Of a stretch of DNA of 64,000 bases, positions 7,652 to 25,541 are shown piece by piece. How positions within the stretch are numbered: the stretch's first letter is position 1; every line of letters begins with the position of its first letter. Where the stretch lies: the NCBI RefSeq assembly GCF_913060805.1, contig NZ_CAJXTC010000004.1, positions 124,001 through 188,000 on the forward strand, written 5' to 3'. Source of the stretch: an uncultured Draconibacterium sp. (GTDB taxonomy: Bacteria; Bacteroidota; Bacteroidia; Bacteroidales; Prolixibacteraceae). The position numbers were made by a program, and so were the translations under genes. The notes under the pieces were generated by a model. It searched no databases. It was given only the letters and a program-made list of their open reading frames with translations, and was not told the DNA's origin.

Positions 7652-7930
7652 TTAATCTACTTCTTCAAAATCAACATATTCGCCATTGTCCTGGCCGTTG
7701 TTCCTCCGGTTTGAGCGCTGATTTTCAACAGTAACTTCGCCTTCGGGGCGTTTTGGTTGCTGCTGTTGTTGTTGTTCGCGCATTTTTTGCTGCATATTTT
7801 TTATGCCTTTATCAATGAGTTTCGGGAAAAGATAACGTTTGAGAAATCTAATCCCAAAATAGATAATTGCAATTATTAAGATTGTTCGGAAGAGGCCAGG
7901 ACCGAAATATAGTGTAATAAATAAAGTCAT
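7652..7930 (-). CDS. DUF4834 family small membrane protein
   Basis: 92 aa. One hydrophobic segment at about residues 5-28, then a basic stretch and a Gln-rich low-complexity tract (QQQQQQ), an acidic C-terminus ending VDFEEVD. This is the pattern of the Bacteroidota DUF4834 family, of unknown function. Its ATG lies 8 bases after the stop of the DUF5723 gene, so the pair is probably co-transcribed. Confidence 0.8.
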   Translation of the reverse strand: MTLFITLYFGPGLFRTILIIAIIYFGIRFLKRYLFPKLIDKGIKNMQQKMREQQQQQQPKRPEGEVTVENQRSNRRNNGQDNGEYVDFEEVD

Positions 7931-7938
7931 ATCAAAAA

Positions 7939-9315
7939 CTATTTTGGCTGCGTGGAAAATAATAAGTTTACACCAAAGCGCAAATTTAAATTTTTTGCTT
8001 TAGATGGTTGCACCAGCTTGGCAATATTATTGGTTGCCAGGTAAAGTTGTACCCCTCGGGCGGTGTAACTGCATGCAAAACCGGGTAAAACTTGCTCTAA
8101 ATTATACAGGTTTAATCCACTGCTTAGCTCGAAACGGGTTCCTAGAAATATATTGAAATAGGCCGATAAATAATTATTTGCTTCTCCGTCGTAGTAGGTC
8201 AGGTTGTCGGAAAAATTCAGCTTCATCCTTTCGTTTAGCTGATGGGTTGCCATCAGGTTTAATTTTACCGGCAGCAGTTCGTACTGGCGTTGGGTAACAG
8301 TTTTTGCTGATGTAATATAAGGCAATGAATCTGACAATGCCAATAAAGCGTCTCTGGGTTCTAAATAGTATGGTGCATCCGAATTCGAAGACTGGTAAAG
8401 GTTTCTTTCAGTATAATCGATCGTTCCGGACAAAGTATTATCAGAAACCCGGGATTTTAGTGTCGTAAATCCCAGATCGGCAATAGCAAATGCAATGGTA
8501 GTTTGTTTGTTTAACTCATACTCAAAACCCAAATCGATACCAGCTCCCATATTTCTGAATTTAAAGAAATAATCGCCGGCAGTTAGATTGGGTTTAATGC
8601 TTGTTTTCCCTTCTATCGGATTGTGTATAATCTTAATTGGACCCGAAATTCGGTACGTTCCGCTTGGCATAATCTGCAGGAGTTGCCTTTCTTCGTCAGT
8701 TTGAATGGTTATTTTTAGGTTGTCGATGTCGTAAAAATACTGGCCAAACAGCACTTTTGCGCGAACACCTAAGCTTAATTTCTTTGTAACTTGCTTTGCG
8801 TACGAAAATGCCAGTTCTCTGAATAAATGTGTTTTTAACGAAACGGGGCCAAATTCTTCTTCCTGTCCGTAATAAGGAAGAAGTCCCTGATCGATGAAAT
8901 TAAGGATTTCCTGATCGAAATTTCCCGAGACCACTATTCGCTCTGATAAGGATATACCAATAGTACGCTTATCTTTTTTGAGACTAAAATAGAGAAGTGG
9001 CAGCGTGGCCACAGTAGCAATATCGCCGGGTTCATTCAACGATCCATAAAAATGACCAAAACTGTAGTCAAAGTTTTTTGAAAATAAATAATCGGGCGAA
9101 AAATTGGCATTCCATTTAAATGCTCCTCCCGATAACAGTGGCAGGCCGATCACCAGTTTCTCGGTTTTATTATGAAAGGCTGGGTTTGACAGCGACGACT
9201 GACTTACCTCCGACAAAAATTGCACAGGATTTCCGTTTTGTGCTGTTGCGGGCATCCAACAAATTGCAGCAAACAGAATTACGATGAGTCGTATTTTTGT
9301 GGGTAAGTTTTTCAT
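7939..9315 (-). CDS. DUF5723 family outer-membrane beta-barrel protein
   Basis: 458 aa with a cleavable signal peptide (IRLIVILFAAICWMPATAQ). The rest shows alternating beta-strand pattern and ends with an aromatic-containing strand, consistent with an outer-membrane barrel. SLSNPAFHNKTEKLVIGLPLLSG and GAGIDLGFEYELNKQTTIA fit the DUF5723 family of Bacteroidota envelope proteins; function unknown. A TATTTTTG -7 box lies at 9339-9332 on the minus strand. Co-directional with DUF4834 downstream. Confidence 0.8.
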   Translation of the reverse strand: MKNLPTKIRLIVILFAAICWMPATAQNGNPVQFLSEVSQSSLSNPAFHNKTEKLVIGLPLLSGGAFKWNANFSPDYLFSKNFDYSFGHFYGSLNEPGDIATVATLPLLYFSLKKDKRTIGISLSERIVVSGNFDQEILNFIDQGLLPYYGQEEEFGPVSLKTHLFRELAFSYAKQVTKKLSLGVRAKVLFGQYFYDIDNLKITIQTDEERQLLQIMPSGTYRISGPIKIIHNPIEGKTSIKPNLTAGDYFFKFRNMGAGIDLGFEYELNKQTTIAFAIADLGFTTLKSRVSDNTLSGTIDYTERNLYQSSNSDAPYYLEPRDALLALSDSLPYITSAKTVTQRQYELLPVKLNLMATHQLNERMKLNFSDNLTYYDGEANNYLSAYFNIFLGTRFELSSGLNLYNLEQVLPGFACSYTARGVQLYLATNNIAKLVQPSKAKNLNLRFGVNLLFSTQPK

Positions 9316-18780: not shown

Positions 18781-19074
18781 CTAAAAATTAAAAGCACCCT
18801 GCATTAGTCCGGCAAGTACGCCAAAAATCGACAGTATTATACCTAAAATTAGCCAGGCCATTCCGGCGGCAAACGATACCCAGGCCCACAATTTGGCATT
18901 TCTACTGGCCGATAATGCTGCTTCGTAATTTCCGGCATTCCAATACGAATTTACCTGCGCGGCAAAAACAATGGCTACAATTCCGAATATTTTTCCGCAA
19001 AAAATAGTTGTCAGAATGGCAAATACCAAATAATTAGGTGGTGGTACTTGTGGTTGATTAACTTGTTCGTTCAT
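18781..19074 (-). CDS. CD225/dispanin family membrane protein
   Basis: 97 aa. PPPNYLVFAILTTIFCGKIF, GIVAIVFAAQVNSYWNAGNY and ALSASRNAKLWAWVSF make the CD225/dispanin domain: an intramembrane helix, a conserved loop and a transmembrane helix. Bacterial members have no assigned role. Upstream partner of the DUF2752 gene in a two-gene operon. Confidence 0.9.
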   Translation of the reverse strand: MNEQVNQPQVPPPNYLVFAILTTIFCGKIFGIVAIVFAAQVNSYWNAGNYEAALSASRNAKLWAWVSFAAGMAWLILGIILSIFGVLAGLMQGAFNF

Positions 19075-19240
19075 GATAAGTAGTTTTTAAAAGACTTGAT
19101 GAAAGCAAAGTTAAACGAACGAACAAGCTAAACAAAGCATCGGCTACAAAATAGTTAGGCGTTTTTTATGGGCCAGGAGCGCGCATGGTAACTCAAATCT
19201 TAAAATATATTAAAATCAACGATCTATTTATCGTCCAAAG

Positions 19241-19270
19241 TTGTGAAAAATTCGAATCGCATTATTTTTG
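19241..19270 (+). promoter_or_regulatory. Strong Bacteroidota promoter with no gene behind it
   Basis: TTG at 19241-19243 and TATTTTTG at 19263-19270, spaced by exactly 19 bases, the consensus spacing of TTG-N19-TAnnTTTG. Transcription should begin near 19276. Confidence 0.7.
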
Positions 19271-19275
19271 CAAGC

Positions 19276-19357
19276 CTTATGGATTAAGGAGCAGGAGGCA
19301 CTTTTTCCATAGATTTTAAGTTTTGGTAGAATGCCATCCGGGAGGGTGGCATTTTTT
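19276..19357 (+). ncRNA. Candidate small RNA of about 80-85 nt
   Basis: Starts after a consensus promoter and ends in an intrinsic terminator: AATGCCATCC (19330-19339) with GGGTGGCATT (19344-19353), then seven T. No reading frame of useful length lies between. I do not recognise the sequence as 6S, SRP or tmRNA. A short peptide or attenuated leader cannot be ruled out, but the next gene starts 200 bases beyond the terminator. Confidence 0.5.
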
Positions 19358-19562
19358 TAGACCAACCAATTTTACAGTCGTACAATTTTTTCGAACAGGG
19401 AAGATTACGACCCCGAACCAAACTACTGAAAAACGAAACTTCTTAACCGCGCTAACCACGCAGAAACACGTTAACAACTAATTAACACGGTTGAATTAAA
19501 CTAAATAAAGAATAAACGGTCTTATAGTAGTAAACAGACAAAAGGAAACAATTTAGACAGCA

Positions 19563-22043
19563 ATGAAGTACTTGACGAACGTAATTTTAATCGCCCTATT
19601 ACTAATTGGGGTGAATTCTTATGCAGTAATTGAAGACCCCGTAAAAAAGGACGATCCAAACGACGATGGAAAAGGAAAAATCGTTGGAACGATCGTAGAA
19701 AAAGATACGGAAACCCCCATGGAATTTGCCAATATAGCCGTTTATAAAGAGACCGATTCAACCCTCGTAACCGGAAGTATTACCAACGAAAAGGGAATTT
19801 TTGAAATAGCGAATTTAGATTATGGCGACTATTATTTAGTGGCCAACTTTATAGGTTTCGATCAGGAAAATGTGGTAGATATTAAAATCGATCGCAGCAA
19901 CCGTGTGCACGATTTGGGCGAGATCAACCTTGCTCCTTCAACGGTTGCCCTTGGCGAAGTAAATGTTGTGGCCGACAAAGCTGCCGTGGAATACAAGCTC
20001 GATAAAAAAGTGGTTAACGTTAGCCAGGTAATCAGTGCCATTGGCGGAACAGCCGTTGATGTTTTGGAAAACACACCTTCTATTCAGGTTGATATTGAAG
20101 GGAATGTGGCCTTGCGCGGATCGGGAAATTTTACCGTACTAATTGACGGCCGGCCAAGTGTTTTAAGCGGTAGCGACGCACTGCGCCAGATTCCGTCTTC
20201 GGCGATCGAAAATATTGAAATCATTACCAACCCATCGGCAAAATACGAGCCCGACGGTGCTGCAGGTATCATTAACCTGGTGATGAAAAAGAACTCGATG
20301 AACGGGCTGAACGGTATTGTAAATGCAAGCGTTGGAACGGGCGATAAATACCGCGGCGATTTTATGCTGAATTACCGTTTTGAAAAACTGAACCTGTTTT
20401 TTGGAGCCGACTGGCGCGATGAGATCAATAACGGGGCAATGGCCTCGGAGCGCGAAACATATTACAACGATACAACTGAATTTTTGAATATGGCCGGCGA
20501 CCGGAAGTGGATTCGTGGCGGACACAGCTTTAAAGGGGGTGCCGATATTTATTTAGGAACCAACACTACCTTAACACTTTCGGGAGAAACCGGGACCTCG
20601 GAACGAGGAAACGAAGGTGGCGGCCGAACAGAGAATTTTACCATCCCGGCCTCCGAGCGAATTCTTTCAATAAGCGAAGAAACCTCGGATCGCAGCAACG
20701 ATTTTTATACGCTGAACATGAATTTTCAGCATAATTTCGACGACAACGGACACCGTATTGAAGCAACCGCTTTTTTCTCGGATGAGACAGGAACCGACAA
20801 CGAAATAGAAGGTGAATTGCTGGCCGACGAGAATTGGAATCCTTCCAACGAGTATTTGTCGAATGTGTCGACACTGGAAACAGAGGACGAACAGGATATT
20901 CGGTTAAAACTCGATTACACCTATCCGTTTAGTGAAGATGGCCGTTTTGAAGCCGGTTACCAGGGGCGACTGGAAAGCGAATTGGAAACGCTTGAATTTC
21001 GCGATTACGATCAGGCGAGTGATTCCTGGGTGATCAACGACGAATATTCGAGTACTACCGATTTTCAGCGCGACATACACGCTGCTTATGCCACCTACAG
21101 CAACAAGGTGGGTGAGCTTGCTTACATGGCGGGTTTGCGTGGAGAGTTAACCGTGCGTGAAATACAAAATACCAGTGCCGAAAATGTTTCGTCACTCAAT
21201 CGTTTCGATCTGTTTCCAACAGCGCACTTCTCGTATCCGGTAGCACAAACTGCCGATGTTACTGCAAGTTACAGCCGGAGGATCAACCGTCCGAGTGGCC
21301 GCGATCTGGATCCAACACCAAATTATTACAACCGTTACACCATCCGTTTTGGAAATCCCGATTTGGAACCTGAATACACCAACTCGTACGAACTGGGTTT
21401 AATGAAACGATTTGGCGAAACACGTTCGTTTATGTCGGCCGATTTGTTCCGCAGGGTAACCAACAATAAAATCGATCGCACACAGGAGTTGGGCGAAGAC
21501 GGTATTTTTTACCTGTACACCGACAACTTTGATAAAGATTACAGTACCGGTCTTGAAGTTACCGGAAACTGGAATTACAAAAAGTGGCTGATCCTTAACG
21601 CCAGTGTGAACGTTTATAAATATAAAATTACCGGCGAGTTGAATGGCGAATCCATCGACCGGGAAAGTACCAACTGGGGTGGCCGAATGAATACGACTTT
21701 TAAATTGGCTGAAAATTCACGTTTTCAATTAAATGCATTTTTCCGCGGCAAATCAGTGTCGGCGCAGGGCGAAAGCGGTGCTATGTTTTTCACCAATATT
21801 TCGTACCGTCAGGAGTTTATGAATAAAAAACTTTCGGCTACTGTTAGCGTTCGCGATCCGCTGGGAACAGGACGTTTTGAGCGGACAAGCTATGGCGACG
21901 ACTTTGAAAGCTGGTTCCGTTTTGAACGCGAACCACGTGTAGTAATGCTTACACTGAGCTACAAGATTAACAACTTTAAAGAAGACCGTGGAAACCGTGG
22001 CGGTGGCGACGGCGGAATGGACATGGGTGGCGGAGAATTTTAA
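19563..22043 (+). CDS. TonB-dependent receptor-like outer-membrane protein (OMP_b-brl_3 type)
   Basis: 826 aa. A signal peptide (YLTNVILIALLLIGVNSYA) is followed by a carboxypeptidase-regulatory-like domain (about 40-125, GKIVGTIVEKDTETPMEFAN), a plug-type region (SAIGGTAVDVLENTPSIQVD, GNFTVLIDGRPSVL, IEIITNPSAKYEPDGAAG) and a large barrel of the outer-membrane beta-barrel family 3 type. Unlike SusC it is short and has no SusD neighbour. C-terminus is Gly/Asp-rich (GGGDGGMDMGGGEF). Substrate unknown. Terminator at 22070-22106. Confidence 0.88.
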   Translation: MKYLTNVILIALLLIGVNSYAVIEDPVKKDDPNDDGKGKIVGTIVEKDTETPMEFANIAVYKETDSTLVTGSITNEKGIFEIANLDYGDYYLVANFIGFDQENVVDIKIDRSNRVHDLGEINLAPSTVALGEVNVVADKAAVEYKLDKKVVNVSQVISAIGGTAVDVLENTPSIQVDIEGNVALRGSGNFTVLIDGRPSVLSGSDALRQIPSSAIENIEIITNPSAKYEPDGAAGIINLVMKKNSMNGLNGIVNASVGTGDKYRGDFMLNYRFEKLNLFFGADWRDEINNGAMASERETYYNDTTEFLNMAGDRKWIRGGHSFKGGADIYLGTNTTLTLSGETGTSERGNEGGGRTENFTIPASERILSISEETSDRSNDFYTLNMNFQHNFDDNGHRIEATAFFSDETGTDNEIEGELLADENWNPSNEYLSNVSTLETEDEQDIRLKLDYTYPFSEDGRFEAGYQGRLESELETLEFRDYDQASDSWVINDEYSSTTDFQRDIHAAYATYSNKVGELAYMAGLRGELTVREIQNTSAENVSSLNRFDLFPTAHFSYPVAQTADVTASYSRRINRPSGRDLDPTPNYYNRYTIRFGNPDLEPEYTNSYELGLMKRFGETRSFMSADLFRRVTNNKIDRTQELGEDGIFYLYTDNFDKDYSTGLEVTGNWNYKKWLILNASVNVYKYKITGELNGESIDRESTNWGGRMNTTFKLAENSRFQLNAFFRGKSVSAQGESGAMFFTNISYRQEFMNKKLSATVSVRDPLGTGRFERTSYGDDFESWFRFEREPRVVMLTLSYKINNFKEDRGNRGGGDGGMDMGGGEF

Positions 22044-22159: not shown

Positions 22160-22224
22160 AACTGAAAACTTCGTTTCCAAACTGAAAAAACAGTTGCAGA
22201 ACTGAAAAATCAGTTGTATGTTTG
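22160..22224 (+). promoter_or_regulatory. Promoter and repeated operator of the BlaI-M56 operon
   Basis: TTG (22194-22196) and TATGTTTG (22217-22224) give a Bacteroidota promoter with 20-base spacing. AACTGAAAA occurs at 22160, 22180 and 22200, exactly 20 bases apart. The last two copies are dyads, AACTGAAAAAACAGTT (22180-22195) and AACTGAAAAATCAGTT (22200-22215), overlapping the -33 and filling the spacer, where a BlaI dimer would block RNA polymerase. Operator role is inferred. Confidence 0.6.
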
Positions 22225-22242: not shown

Positions 22243-22309
22243 TGTCATTTCGAGTGAGAGAAGCGACCGAGAAATCTGTCACAGATTCCTCTCTACGTTC
22301 GGAATGACA
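22243..22309. repeat. REP-like hairpin element in the BlaI leader
   Basis: TGTCATTTCGAG (22243-22254) is mirrored by CGGAATGACA (22300-22309), with an inner AATCTG/CAGATT hairpin. This TGTCATT...AATGACA design is a familiar type of dispersed Bacteroidota repeat. It lies between the predicted start site and the blaI ATG. Confidence 0.6.
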
Positions 22310-22332
22310 ATAAATTATGAAACGACAGTACA

Positions 22333-22692
22333 ATGAAGAAACTAACAAAAAAGGAAGAGGAGTTGATGAAGATCCTCTGGAAACTGGAAAAAGCGTTTGT
22401 AAAAGACATTGTTGAGTTGTATCCCGAACCAAAACCGCATTACAACACCATTTCGTCGTTGGTGCGTTTGTTGCAAGACAAAGGCGTTATCGGTTTTAAA
22501 CAATACGGCAACACTTACCAGTATTTTCCACTCATCTCGAAAGAGGAGTATCGCCGTTCGTTTATGAACCAGGTGGTTAGCGACTATTTCGATAACTCGT
22601 ACAAAAGTGCAGTGGCCTTTTTTGTAAAAGAGAAAAACCTGTCGGAAGACGAGATCGACGAACTGGTTAACCTCATTAAAAACAAAAAGTAA
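22333..22692 (+). CDS. BlaI/MecI/CopY family transcriptional repressor
   Basis: 119 aa. Winged helix at residues 1-75 (KKLTKKEEELMKILWKLEKA, PHYNTISSLVRLLQDKGVIG with the recognition helix), and a C-terminal dimerisation/cleavage region DNSYKSAVAFFVKEKNLSED. These repressors bind dyads at promoters and are released by cleavage triggered by a partner M56 (BlaR1-type) protease, which is encoded next with a one-base overlap. Probably autoregulates via the dyads at 22180-22215. Confidence 0.92.
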   Translation: MKKLTKKEEELMKILWKLEKAFVKDIVELYPEPKPHYNTISSLVRLLQDKGVIGFKQYGNTYQYFPLISKEEYRRSFMNQVVSDYFDNSYKSAVAFFVKEKNLSEDEIDELVNLIKNKK

Positions 22693-25541
22693 TGGAAGAT
22701 TTTATCCTCTATATCGGGAAGGCTGCTTTGGCGCTGGGTGCTTTTTACCTGGCTTACCTGGCTCTTTTCCAGCACCAGAAACATTTTCTGTTCAACCGGA
22801 TTTATTTGCCGGTGTCGTTTTTGGTTAGTTTCCTTATTCCGCTGATTACGTTTACCAAAGTGAATTATATACAGCCGATTCCCGCAGCTGCTTCAACTGG
22901 TTTTGCTTACCTGCCCGAAGCTGCTGTGGCCAGCGAGCCGCAATTTAACTTCGAATGGTATCATTACCTGCTGGGGATTTATGCACTCGGAATTGTTGTA
23001 TTTCTACTGAATCTGTTGATCGGGCACCTCAAAGCCATGAATATTATCCGATTTAGCCGCCTGAAGGAATTGTTTGGAGCACAAGTTAACCTTACTAAAA
23101 AGGATGTGCACCCATTCTCTTTCTTTTCGCGAATTGTGCTGTCGGAAAAAACATTGAAAAATCCCGATCTGAAAATGATCGTCGACCACGAAATGATTCA
23201 CGTAAGAGAACGCCATACGCTCGATATTCTTTTTGCCGAGCTTTTGTTTCTACTCCAGTGGTTTAACCCCTTTGCCTGGTTAATCCGCGATGCGATGCGA
23301 AATAACCTGGAATACCTGACTGATCATCAGGTAGCCCAAAATCATAATGCCGAAGCTTATCAATTGGCCATGGTAGGATTAGCGCATAAAAAAGGAGTAG
23401 CTCCCTTTTTGACGGCGCTTAACGGCTCACAATTAAAAAACCGTATTATCATGATGAAAAAGAAAACAGAAAATCGGTACAGCCTTATGAAACAGTTGGT
23501 TGTACTGCCCCTGCTGGCCATTTTGGTTATGGGTTTGTCGAACAAGGAAGTACGAACCGAAGTGTTACACGATGCCGGACAATTAAAAGTAGTTGTTGAC
23601 GGTATTGAGCTTCCGGCCGATCATTCCGACCTTATCAACCTTGATTTTGCTAACGGATTTGATGGAGGTGAAGTGATAAATGCACTTGGCCTTGAAAACA
23701 AAGTGGTTGCGAATGCACTGTCGTTTGATAAAAATCCAAAAGAGGATGGTGTGTATTATATTCAAACCAGGGATTATGATCCAGGCACCGTTCCTGAGTT
23801 TGATAAAATGGTCAATAAACCGGAGGTTCTTGTGCGAAGCGACAATTTTACAGTAAAAGGTACTGTAGAAAATGGTTTTGGTGAGAGGATTCCGAATGCC
23901 AAAATCGTTAACAATGAATCGTCGGAAGAATTTGTGGCAGATGGGAATGGGTTTTTCGAACTTGCGTTTAACGGAATAGAAAAACCGATAGTTTTAAGCT
24001 TCTCAGCACCCGGTTATTACAAAAATGATGTTGTTTATTACGGCAATAAGAAAGAACTGAGAATAGGTCTTGCTGAGAGTAGCTCAGAGAAAGAAGTTAC
24101 TATCTCAGGAAAAATCACCAACGAAGATGGTGATGGAATTCCGGCAGTAGCTGTGTTGGTAAAAGGATCTACAGTTGGTACTATTTCGGATGTGCATGGA
24201 AATTATGAGATTGCGACCGACGCAAACAACGTGCTGGTTTTTAAAATAATGGGATACGATGAAAAAGAAGTTGCTATTGATGGCAAATCGGAGCTTGATG
24301 TTCAGCTAAATCAAACACCAAAAAAATTCGCAGTTGGAGTTGCCGCTCCAAATGATGGTCTTCCCAGGGTTGATTTGCTCAGTAATTCTAAAAATCCTCC
24401 TTTATACATTGTTGACGGCAAAGAGTCGCGCAAGATCGATATTCTGCAGCCTGATGAAATTGCATCCATGACAGTTTTGAAAAGTCAGCAGGCTAAAACT
24501 TTATACGGCGACAAAGGAAAAGACGGTGTGATCGTTATCGCAACAAAAGCCTCTGCAAAGGATAAAGCAGATGAGGTAAAAGTGATTGGTTATGGAACGC
24601 AGACAAAAAATGAGCCCTTGGAAAGCGTTCAGGTTCGTATTTCGGAAAGTTCCAATGGCGGCGCTCCGCTTTATATCGTAGATGGGAAACCGGTAGCTGA
24701 TATAAATTTAATTGATCCGAACGACATTGAAAGCATGTCTGTTTTAAAAGGAGAACAAGCTACTGCATTATATGGGTCGGTTGGGGGTAAAAATGGTGTA
24801 GTCATTGTTACAACCAAAGAAGCTGCAAAAGCTAAAATGGAGGATGCTGTAGTACTTGTTGAAGGTATTCCTTACGATGGTGATATTAACGATATCGATC
24901 CGGAAACAATTGAATCAATGGAAGTGCTGAAAGACGAAAGTGCTACCAAAATATATGGTCCAATCGCTAAAAACGGAGCCATTTCGATCAAACTGAAAGG
25001 TTCTGCTGATCTTGGTGGAAAATCGCCACTGATCTTTCTCGACGGTGAAAAATTCACTGGAGAGATGAATGACATCGATCCTAATGACATTGAATCGATC
25101 TCTGTTCTGAAAGATGCTGAATCAATTAAGACTTATGGAGAAGAAGCTAAAGACGGTGTGATACTTATTACCAAAAAAACGGAAGAAATAACTTCGGAAT
25201 TAGATTTGCGAAAGTTTATTGCGAAAAAGATAAAATATCCCACTAATGCAGTTGAGAAAGGGAGCCAGGGAACTGTTCAGGCTTTTGTTGAGTTTGGTAA
25301 AGAAAATAAGGAAGTTTCAATACATGATTATAAGCAAAAAAATATTGAGCACCTGGAAGATGTGGTTGTGGTTGGTTATGCTAAAAACGGCGTAAAACAA
25401 CCAACAGATGATGAGGAAATGGTACCGGAGTTGATTCTGGAATTGAAAAGAGTTTTAGAACAGCTTCCTTCAGTAGATATTAAAAAATTCAAAGGTAAGG
25501 CTGTTGGAGTTTCTGTAAAATTCGTGCTGCAAGAAAAGTAA
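22692..25541 (+). CDS. M56 (BlaR1-type) metallopeptidase fused to four plug-like repeats and a TonB-like C-terminus
   Basis: 949 aa. Residues 1-300 are a BlaR1-type membrane peptidase: several TM segments, zinc motif HEMIH (about 166-170) and third ligand in NLEYLTDHQV. Then come two carboxypeptidase-regulatory-like domains (about 23850-24085 and 24090-24320) and four copies of a TonB-plug-like unit with LYIVDGK, DIESMSVLK and ALYG..GKNGVVIVTTK motifs (starting about 24397, 24661, 24847, 25024). The last 115 residues (RKFIAKKIKYPTNAVEKGSQ onward) resemble the TonB C-terminal domain. It starts inside the blaI stop (TAATG). Probably senses an envelope state and cleaves BlaI; the repeats' role is unknown. 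Confidence 0.85.
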   Translation: MEDFILYIGKAALALGAFYLAYLALFQHQKHFLFNRIYLPVSFLVSFLIPLITFTKVNYIQPIPAAASTGFAYLPEAAVASEPQFNFEWYHYLLGIYALGIVVFLLNLLIGHLKAMNIIRFSRLKELFGAQVNLTKKDVHPFSFFSRIVLSEKTLKNPDLKMIVDHEMIHVRERHTLDILFAELLFLLQWFNPFAWLIRDAMRNNLEYLTDHQVAQNHNAEAYQLAMVGLAHKKGVAPFLTALNGSQLKNRIIMMKKKTENRYSLMKQLVVLPLLAILVMGLSNKEVRTEVLHDAGQLKVVVDGIELPADHSDLINLDFANGFDGGEVINALGLENKVVANALSFDKNPKEDGVYYIQTRDYDPGTVPEFDKMVNKPEVLVRSDNFTVKGTVENGFGERIPNAKIVNNESSEEFVADGNGFFELAFNGIEKPIVLSFSAPGYYKNDVVYYGNKKELRIGLAESSSEKEVTISGKITNEDGDGIPAVAVLVKGSTVGTISDVHGNYEIATDANNVLVFKIMGYDEKEVAIDGKSELDVQLNQTPKKFAVGVAAPNDGLPRVDLLSNSKNPPLYIVDGKESRKIDILQPDEIASMTVLKSQQAKTLYGDKGKDGVIVIATKASAKDKADEVKVIGYGTQTKNEPLESVQVRISESSNGGAPLYIVDGKPVADINLIDPNDIESMSVLKGEQATALYGSVGGKNGVVIVTTKEAAKAKMEDAVVLVEGIPYDGDINDIDPETIESMEVLKDESATKIYGPIAKNGAISIKLKGSADLGGKSPLIFLDGEKFTGEMNDIDPNDIESISVLKDAESIKTYGEEAKDGVILITKKTEEITSELDLRKFIAKKIKYPTNAVEKGSQGTVQAFVEFGKENKEVSIHDYKQKNIEHLEDVVVVGYAKNGVKQPTDDEEMVPELILELKRVLEQLPSVDIKKFKGKAVGVSVKFVLQEK

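Follow-up and report, generated by a model that had tools for sequence, protein, structure and literature searches.

A BlaR1-type M56 protease from an uncultured Draconibacterium sp., with a transporter-like arm and a TonB_C-like C-terminal domain exchanged between species

Related systems and the gene pair

Proteases of the BlaR1 type switch antibiotic-resistance genes in other bacteria. In BlaR1 and MecR1, binding of a ligand on the outside activates an M56 protease on the inside, and the repressor BlaI is removed. This report concerns a BlaR1-type protein whose sensor head, unexpectedly, is exchangeable. It is encoded in the window, the whole stretch of DNA analyzed (64,000 nucleotides; contig NZ_CAJXTC010000004.1, positions 124,001 to 188,000), from an uncultured Draconibacterium sp. 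(genome G000). The gene (22692..25541, 949 amino acids (aa); open reading frame (ORF) and Pfam) codes for an M56 protease with a transporter-like, presumably periplasmic arm, and the arm is the new part. A blaI/mecI-type repressor gene (22333..22692, 119 aa) lies directly upstream, and its TAA stop and the ATG of the protease gene have one base in common. All coordinates are those of the window, and all of its features described here lie on the forward strand.

The pair resembles BlaR1/MecR1 and BlaI/MecI of Staphylococcus in that the M56 part aligns over its full length with BlaR1 (8exp) and a MecI-like repressor gene directly precedes it. It differs in the operator, AACTG-N6-CAGTT, and in the sensor, which consists of transporter and TonB pieces; no penicillin-binding sensor domain was matched in the 949-aa protein by Pfam or NCBIfam at E ≤ 1. 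Unnamed M56-TonB_C and M56-plug proteins of Bacteroidota, annotated in bulk, also have a blaI neighbor and a TonB_C domain or half plug, but here the protein joins carboxypeptidase-regulatory-like domains (CPD) and as many as six half plugs to a C-terminal domain (CTD) that bears a Ton box and is exchanged between species. The 2007 survey of TonB proteins by Chu et al. reportedly noted MecR1-like TonB proteins. Bacteroidota have many TonB-dependent transporters (TBDTs). With the SusC/RagA type the protein shares the N-terminal extension (NTE)/CPD, the Ton box and the second half of the plug, but it has no barrel and only half plugs, and it would be anchored at the inner membrane. With TonB energy transducers it shares a C-terminal TonB_C domain, as judged by hhalign, but the M56 membrane part replaces the single N-terminal anchor with its proline-rich spacer. 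Signaling of the FecA/FecR type, from TBDTs with an STN domain to anti-sigma factors, is described in PMC7782687; the M56-plug protein would also couple the state of a transporter to transcription across the envelope, but here the inner-membrane protein itself has the transporter parts and would act by proteolysis of a repressor. Among the literature matches listed, no description of an M56-plug fusion was found, and the terms 'M56' and 'BlaR' do not occur in the main text of PMC12204202.

The protease-repressor half of the interpretation is well supported. The BlaR1/MecR1 plan is matched here by a protease signature, a BlaI partner and an operator over the blaI promoter. For the protein as a whole, the reading favored, tentatively and with somewhat less than even confidence, is an autoregulated protease-repressor switch that would sample the state of TBDTs by mimicry through an exchangeable recognition head. 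The original prediction, made from the letters of the DNA, was that the protein could respond to TonB activity, to plugs or to the state of a receptor by relieving BlaI repression; this is plausible. If true, a protease-repressor pair would serve as an inner-membrane reader of transporter or TonB state other than the anti-sigma factors.

The protease, its repressor and the arm

The membrane and protease part (22692..23540, aa 1-283) was delimited by Pfam, the BlaR1 alignment and the helices of a low-confidence model. Pfam Peptidase_M56 scores 46.9 bits (cut-off 31). The HEMIH motif lies at aa 166-170 (23187-23201), and H166, E167, H170, E207 and D211 are invariant in all 31 orthologue sequences from the genus. 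The M56 profile aligns end to end with the solved BlaR1 8exp (E 3.5e-5); in this alignment SFNG of BlaR1, which we take to be the self-cleavage site, pairs with the ALNG of an ALNGSQLKNR stretch that is nearly invariant (23 of 31 orthologues aligned). The NCBIfam model NF000326 (blaR1_generic) gives 36.6 bits, below its cut-off of 400. In BlaR1/MecR1 transducers the protease sits between helices three and four of a four-helix membrane part. Here, helices are predicted at residues 2-26, 34-55, 89-120 and 264-282 in a model of residues 1-554 with a predicted local distance difference test (pLDDT) score of 63.4, in which the first 84 residues are of low confidence (pLDDT below 50). The 119-aa BlaI has the BlaI/MecI repressor fold (Penicillinase_R, 110.3 bits, cut-off 22.6) and matches MecI of 1okr (E 9.7e-11); its FFVKEKNLS aligns with NFVEKEDLS of MecI, presumably the cleavage region. 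In a genus genome, G015 (L160, about 7900-8900, minus strand), the operator is intact and the receptor gene is retained, blaI is frameshifted and M56 is cut to about 20 residues. Both genes have decayed there and the operator is left, which agrees with a two-gene unit decaying together.

The arm begins with two NTE-like CPD domains, found by Pfam at 23847..24071 (aa about 386-460; strands also in the predicted model) and 24096..24323 (aa about 469-544); CarbopepD_reg_2 gives 64 bits over these two stretches. Four half plugs follow, at 24393..24548 (aa 568-619; NCBIfam signature and predicted model), 24663..24818 (aa 658-709; Pfam and NCBIfam), 24843..24998 (aa 718-769; NCBIfam) and 25020..25178 (aa 777-829; NCBIfam). 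A Ton-box-like DEVKVIGY (24570..24593, aa 627-634) stands between the first two. Pfam Plug scores 84.1 bits (cut-off 23.9) with four stretches at E ≤ 1, three of them individually at E ≤ 0.01, and SusC_RagA_signa scores 125.6 bits (cut-off 46.2), also in four stretches. Four plug-like repeats had been predicted, and four are found, but they are half plugs and not whole ones. The best Plug stretch covers profile positions 55-101 of 107, the second half of the family; aligned to the SusC homologue in 5t3r, the repeat profile falls on residues 179-230. Among solved structures this profile reaches SusC/RagA at E 4.4e-18 and 20 sequences at E ≤ 0.01, with a gradual fall-off to other TBDTs; one repeat alignment used 43 of 88 repeats, and one orthologue alignment 24 of 31 sequences. 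No outer-membrane beta-barrel family was matched in the 949-aa protein by Pfam or NCBIfam, and the SusC model TIGR04056 scores 267.8, below its cut-off of 368.25. The profile has 50 matches at E ≤ 1e-5 in the window's genome, four of them within this gene; most of the others fall in open frames whose length, 900-1160 aa, is that of SusC receptors. Two frames with half plugs (G000:C12:107853 and G000:C3:8726), of 230 and 233 aa, are too short for a SusC receptor. The remaining parts of the original layout, namely a 949-aa ORF exactly at 22692-25541, its TAATG overlap with blaI, an M56 zinc protease with HEMIH, two CPD domains and the order of the domains, agree with the ORF search and the Pfam and NCBIfam matches.

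The protein ends in the CTD (25200..25538, aa 837-949). Pfam finds no TonB_C in it. In an hhalign comparison (26 CTD sequences against 14), it matches genuine TonB_C domains from M56 relatives with a probability of 98.7 and E 4.5e-16; the match to solved TonB domains is weak (best E 0.0093). The TonB-like end that had been proposed stands in the profile-profile match, but not as a Pfam TonB_C domain. The CTD alignment holds 26 of the 31 orthologues, and the TonB_C set omits one TonB_C-like piece, from L074, that fitted poorly. Judged from these alignments, the CTD is a TonB_C domain that has diverged and has an insert similar to the Ton box of SusC: it aligns with TonB_C throughout except for the insert, which carries [DE][ED]VVVVGY (EDVVVVGY in the window, 25356..25379, aa 889-896). 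The insert resembles DEVVVTG, which has been tested as the Ton box of the SusC protein Bt1763, and in SusC proteins a CPD-type NTE precedes the Ton box (PMC7782687). The Ton-box pattern, written after the CTD alignment had been seen, occurs in 23/26 CTDs versus 0.064 expected after shuffling (23/28 in another count), and a second Ton-box-like motif lies directly ahead of a half plug in 10 of the 31 orthologues. The whole CTD model is matched once in each of eight genus genomes; elsewhere only its first 42 positions are matched, in TonB-sized frames or in a paralogue (C22). The TonB_C-like end, together with the Pfam TonB_C domain in 12 of the 31 orthologues, might suit a protein that is mainly an extra TonB-like energy transducer, with protease control secondary. 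This is most improbable, as the protein's own CTD fails Pfam TonB_C, its pairing with blaI is near-universal, and in place of one TonB-type anchor it has a protease domain and four helices predicted to lie in the membrane.

An AlphaFold2 model of residues 555-949 (24 sequences) has a mean pLDDT of 66.5 and a predicted template-modeling score (pTM) of 0.36. In it each half-plug repeat is folded as strand-strand-helix-strand-helix-strand and the CTD as helix-helix-strand-strand-strand-helix-strand, with strand 891-897 over the Ton-box-like segment. SusC/RagA-type transporters are the top Foldseek matches (8a9y, 7.6e-3; 8aa4, 57 columns, 2.0 Å, 42% identity), and the TonB-CTD of H. pylori is at rank 13 (TM-score 0.64 on target). 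The plug and TonB folds expected for the arm appear in kind among the matches of residues 555-949, but none reaches E 0.001 and the model is of middling confidence. Residues 285-365, directly behind the fourth membrane helix, for which the model of residues 1-554 suggests strand-helix-strand, were tried as a fifth, degenerate half plug and rejected (hhalign probability 8 against the half-plug profile). A relationship between half plug and CTD was also rejected (hhalign probability 0.1).

DegS senses the tails of outer-membrane proteins. By analogy, the same protease-repressor switch might have an arm that senses damage to such proteins, with loose plugs or misfolded transporters strand-pairing with the half plugs. 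In its favor, every module recognized in the arm is a periplasmic component of outer-membrane transport, and one of the 31 orthologues has a POTRA domain. The explanation is nevertheless distinctly unlikely: the TonB_C head and not the half plugs is the most variable part, and in those genomes that were inspected no envelope-repair genes are among the targets of strict operator sites (see below).

Exchange of the CTD between species

Both trees and DNA profiles show that the CTD has been exchanged between species by recombination. The CTD of the window is 36-46% identical to those of nine of ten close relatives and 94% identical to that of the tenth (G034); the protease, repressor and flanking proteins of the same relatives are 86-99% identical to those of the window. 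In pairwise comparisons of 11 close genomes, BlaI is 94-99% identical, M56 85-96%, the receptor 85-97% and the downstream protein 84-98%; the last half plug ranges over 64-96% and the CTD over 34-94%, with a mean of 51%. CTDs of high identity are shared by G000-G034 (94%), G005-G013 (91%), G009-G030 (90%) and G002-G024-G029 (79-85%). At the DNA level, G013 and G034 are about 50% identical in the CTD versus 79-100% elsewhere in aligned bins, and G000 and G034 are 95-96% identical in the CTD versus 35-61% in the preceding arm. In approximately unbiased (AU) tests of groups picked after the identities were seen, the CTD data reject {G013,G034} (p-AU 0.0011) and a clade of five genomes seen in the flanking tree (under 1e-100); the flanking data reject {G005,G013} (p-AU 0.0059) and {G009,G030} (0.0069) but not {G000,G034} (0.31).

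Relaxed constraint only would be compatible with the free variation of arm length and module number and with frame damage in one copy (L054). As the sole cause of CTD divergence it is very unlikely: CTDs of distant pairs are 90-94% identical, both DNA profiles given above run counter to it, and residues of the CTD fold core are conserved. The CTD of L054 lies in another frame, 113 nt past the M56 stop, by frameshift or assembly error.

Two paralogues were used as controls. The TonB_C domain of C22 is kept at 84-99%. In C18 (the G000 copy, L067, and relatives) the arm is mosaic as well, with two CPD types exchanged between species; its G034 copy is truncated, which lowers the identity figures of C18. 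Arm mosaicism is therefore found in some, not all, of these proteins.

The recombination of the CTD suggests partner specificity, and the swap hints that this domain recognizes something specific in the cell envelope. The exchange would show that the reading is specific and under selection, and would supply natural allele pairs for partner finding. A possible, if unlikely, form of this is a polymorphic receptor, with an exchangeable TonB_C/Ton-box head under diversifying selection that recognizes or avoids TonB, transporter or foreign (bacteriocin, phage) partners, its mimics watching TonB traffic in an allele-specific way. Alternatively, the arm could be a decoy or recognition surface against TonB-using bacteriocins, phages or kin, with the CTD swapped because recognition is under diversifying selection. 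The sharp DNA borders of the CTD classes exchanged between species speak for such a conflict, as do the variation of half-plug number from 1 to 6 and the conserved TonB_C of C22. It is rather unlikely, since no partner or immunity gene was found to follow the CTD class, defense genes are missing from the predicted regulon in the genomes inspected, and the mosaic arm of C18 makes mosaicism not unique to this gene. Orphan C-terminal cassettes, looked for in the 6 kb downstream of the 31 genus loci, were rejected as well; only the frameshifted CTD of L054 and a short remnant in L055 were seen.

Operator, distribution and proposed mode of action

Two dyads lie at the blaI promoter, AACTGAAAAAACAGTT at 22180..22195 and AACTGAAAAATCAGTT at 22200..22215, the second 20 bp after the first. 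The TTG of a -33-like element lies at 22194-22196, at the end of dyad 1. Dyad 2 is placed between this and a -7-like element, TATGTTTG (22217..22224), which it directly precedes and which fits TAnnTTTG, taken here as the Bacteroidota -7 consensus. The dyads are a candidate BlaI operator, conserved in 30/30 genus genes. A perfect AACTG-N6-CAGTT is found no more than 260 nt from 29 of the 30 genus blaI genes, with copies spaced 20 or 40 bp, and about 340 nt upstream of the thirtieth (L055); in 27 of the 30 the dyads overlap a Bacteroidota-type -7-like element. The motif occurs in none of the eight upstream stretches of paralogous or distant blaI examined. With a defined operator, a simple reporter is possible.

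In the window's genome AACTGAAAAANCAGTT occurs exactly twice, both times at the blaI-M56 operon, and seven more places have one mismatch. A longer operator-promoter pattern gives 63 matches across the genus versus 6 for a reversed control, and is present in 33/37 genomes. Extra operator copies lie at promoters of beta-propeller (DUF5128/DUF4934) operons in G002, G007, G010 and G031, the four genomes inspected (L156, L158, L159, L161), and in G010 and G031 ahead of an OMP_b-brl_3 receptor gene that precedes a LytTR regulator (L157, L162). A search of the window's genome, run without a positive control, found no match for a homologue of the G007 beta-propeller protein. One more strict site is present in G012, ahead of an HlyD-like gene.

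Orthologues were found in 31/37 genus genomes (best E ≤ 1e-120; 1e-20 to 1e-35 in the other six), with up to 14 candidates scored per genome. Pfam detects M56 in all 31, Plug in 29, CPD in 25, TonB_C in 12 and POTRA in one; two are truncated by contig ends, and the complete ones have one to six half plugs. The bearer of POTRA is probably L062 (L062_7091), as read from its sequence. The blaI gene is directly upstream in 30 of the 31 loci, the exception ending at a contig end, and an OMP_b-brl_3 receptor gene is upstream in 24. A wider sample comprised the best 80 loci from the GTDB collection, mostly Bacteroidota with a few labeled Aminicenantes or Ignavibacteriae; five of these (L164-L168), all plug carriers, repeat genus genomes. 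Of its 88 M56 ORFs, 36 have a half plug, 33 TonB_C, nine both and 27 none of these modules, as counted above 12 bits with our own small profiles built from few sequences. A blaI gene adjoins 82 of the 88, including 30 of the 36 that bear plugs; the six without it are all plug carriers. The blaI-M56-plug arrangement is conserved in relatives, as the original prediction required, and the rarity that it implied for the fusion does not hold. With half plugs in 36/88 M56 ORFs and orthologues in 31/37 genus genomes, the fusion is recurrent and not unique to the window's genome.

In the favored switch, BlaI would bind the tandem AACTG-N6-CAGTT operator and repress its own promoter together with the co-transcribed protease gene. 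The M56 protein would reside in the inner membrane with its zinc protease in the cytosol and its long arm in the periplasm. The arm would repeat, in compressed form, the face that a SusC-type transporter turns to the periplasm (an NTE/CPD domain, a Ton box and a half plug) and end in a TonB-like domain that itself has a Ton-box-like segment. The Ton boxes of the arm may be a handle for TonB, the half plugs may represent the segments that TonB remodels in real transporters, and the CTD, as the exchangeable recognition head, might be able to bind Ton boxes of other proteins. The protease would turn on when a partner binds or pulls the arm, the likeliest candidates being TonB and the Ton boxes of transporters at work. 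The active protease would then cleave BlaI and derepress the operon and, in a few species, the beta-propeller and receptor genes too.

Several points weigh against this switch. In the window's genome the strict operator site marks only the blaI-M56 operon, and the stretch 19001-19580 ahead of the neighboring receptor gene holds none below three mismatches. Of the 29 genus loci that extend far enough upstream, five lack an OMP_b-brl_3 receptor. The M56 match to BlaR1 is modest and composition-biased, and the alignment to 8exs is shifted relative to that to 8exp. In 4/31 proteins the Ton-box pattern also picks out a segment at aa 327 that is conserved but unrelated to Ton boxes, so the pattern alone is not specific. 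Both models are of middling or low confidence (pLDDT 66.5 and 63.4), Foldseek gives 0 matches at E ≤ 0.001 for residues 555-949, and aa 285-365 are without a module assignment.

The neighboring OMP_b-brl_3-type TonB-dependent receptor (19563..22043, 826 aa; Pfam) is conserved by synteny, and a functional link to the gene pair is putative. Control of this gene by the same operator was considered for the window's genome and rejected on the stretch 19001-19580 named above. Between operator and blaI, at 22246-22312, the window has an inverted repeat, TGTCATTTCGAG...CGGAATGACA, that resembles a repetitive extragenic palindromic (REP) sequence or a miniature inverted-repeat transposable element (MITE) and is present in some relatives only. 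Upstream of paralogous blaI in L068 and L075, AACTA-N7-TAGTT repeats stand in place of AACTG-N6-CAGTT, which suggests a second BlaI specificity. Two Flavobacterium loci (L213 and L234) contain three consecutive M56 genes, two of them with a half plug.

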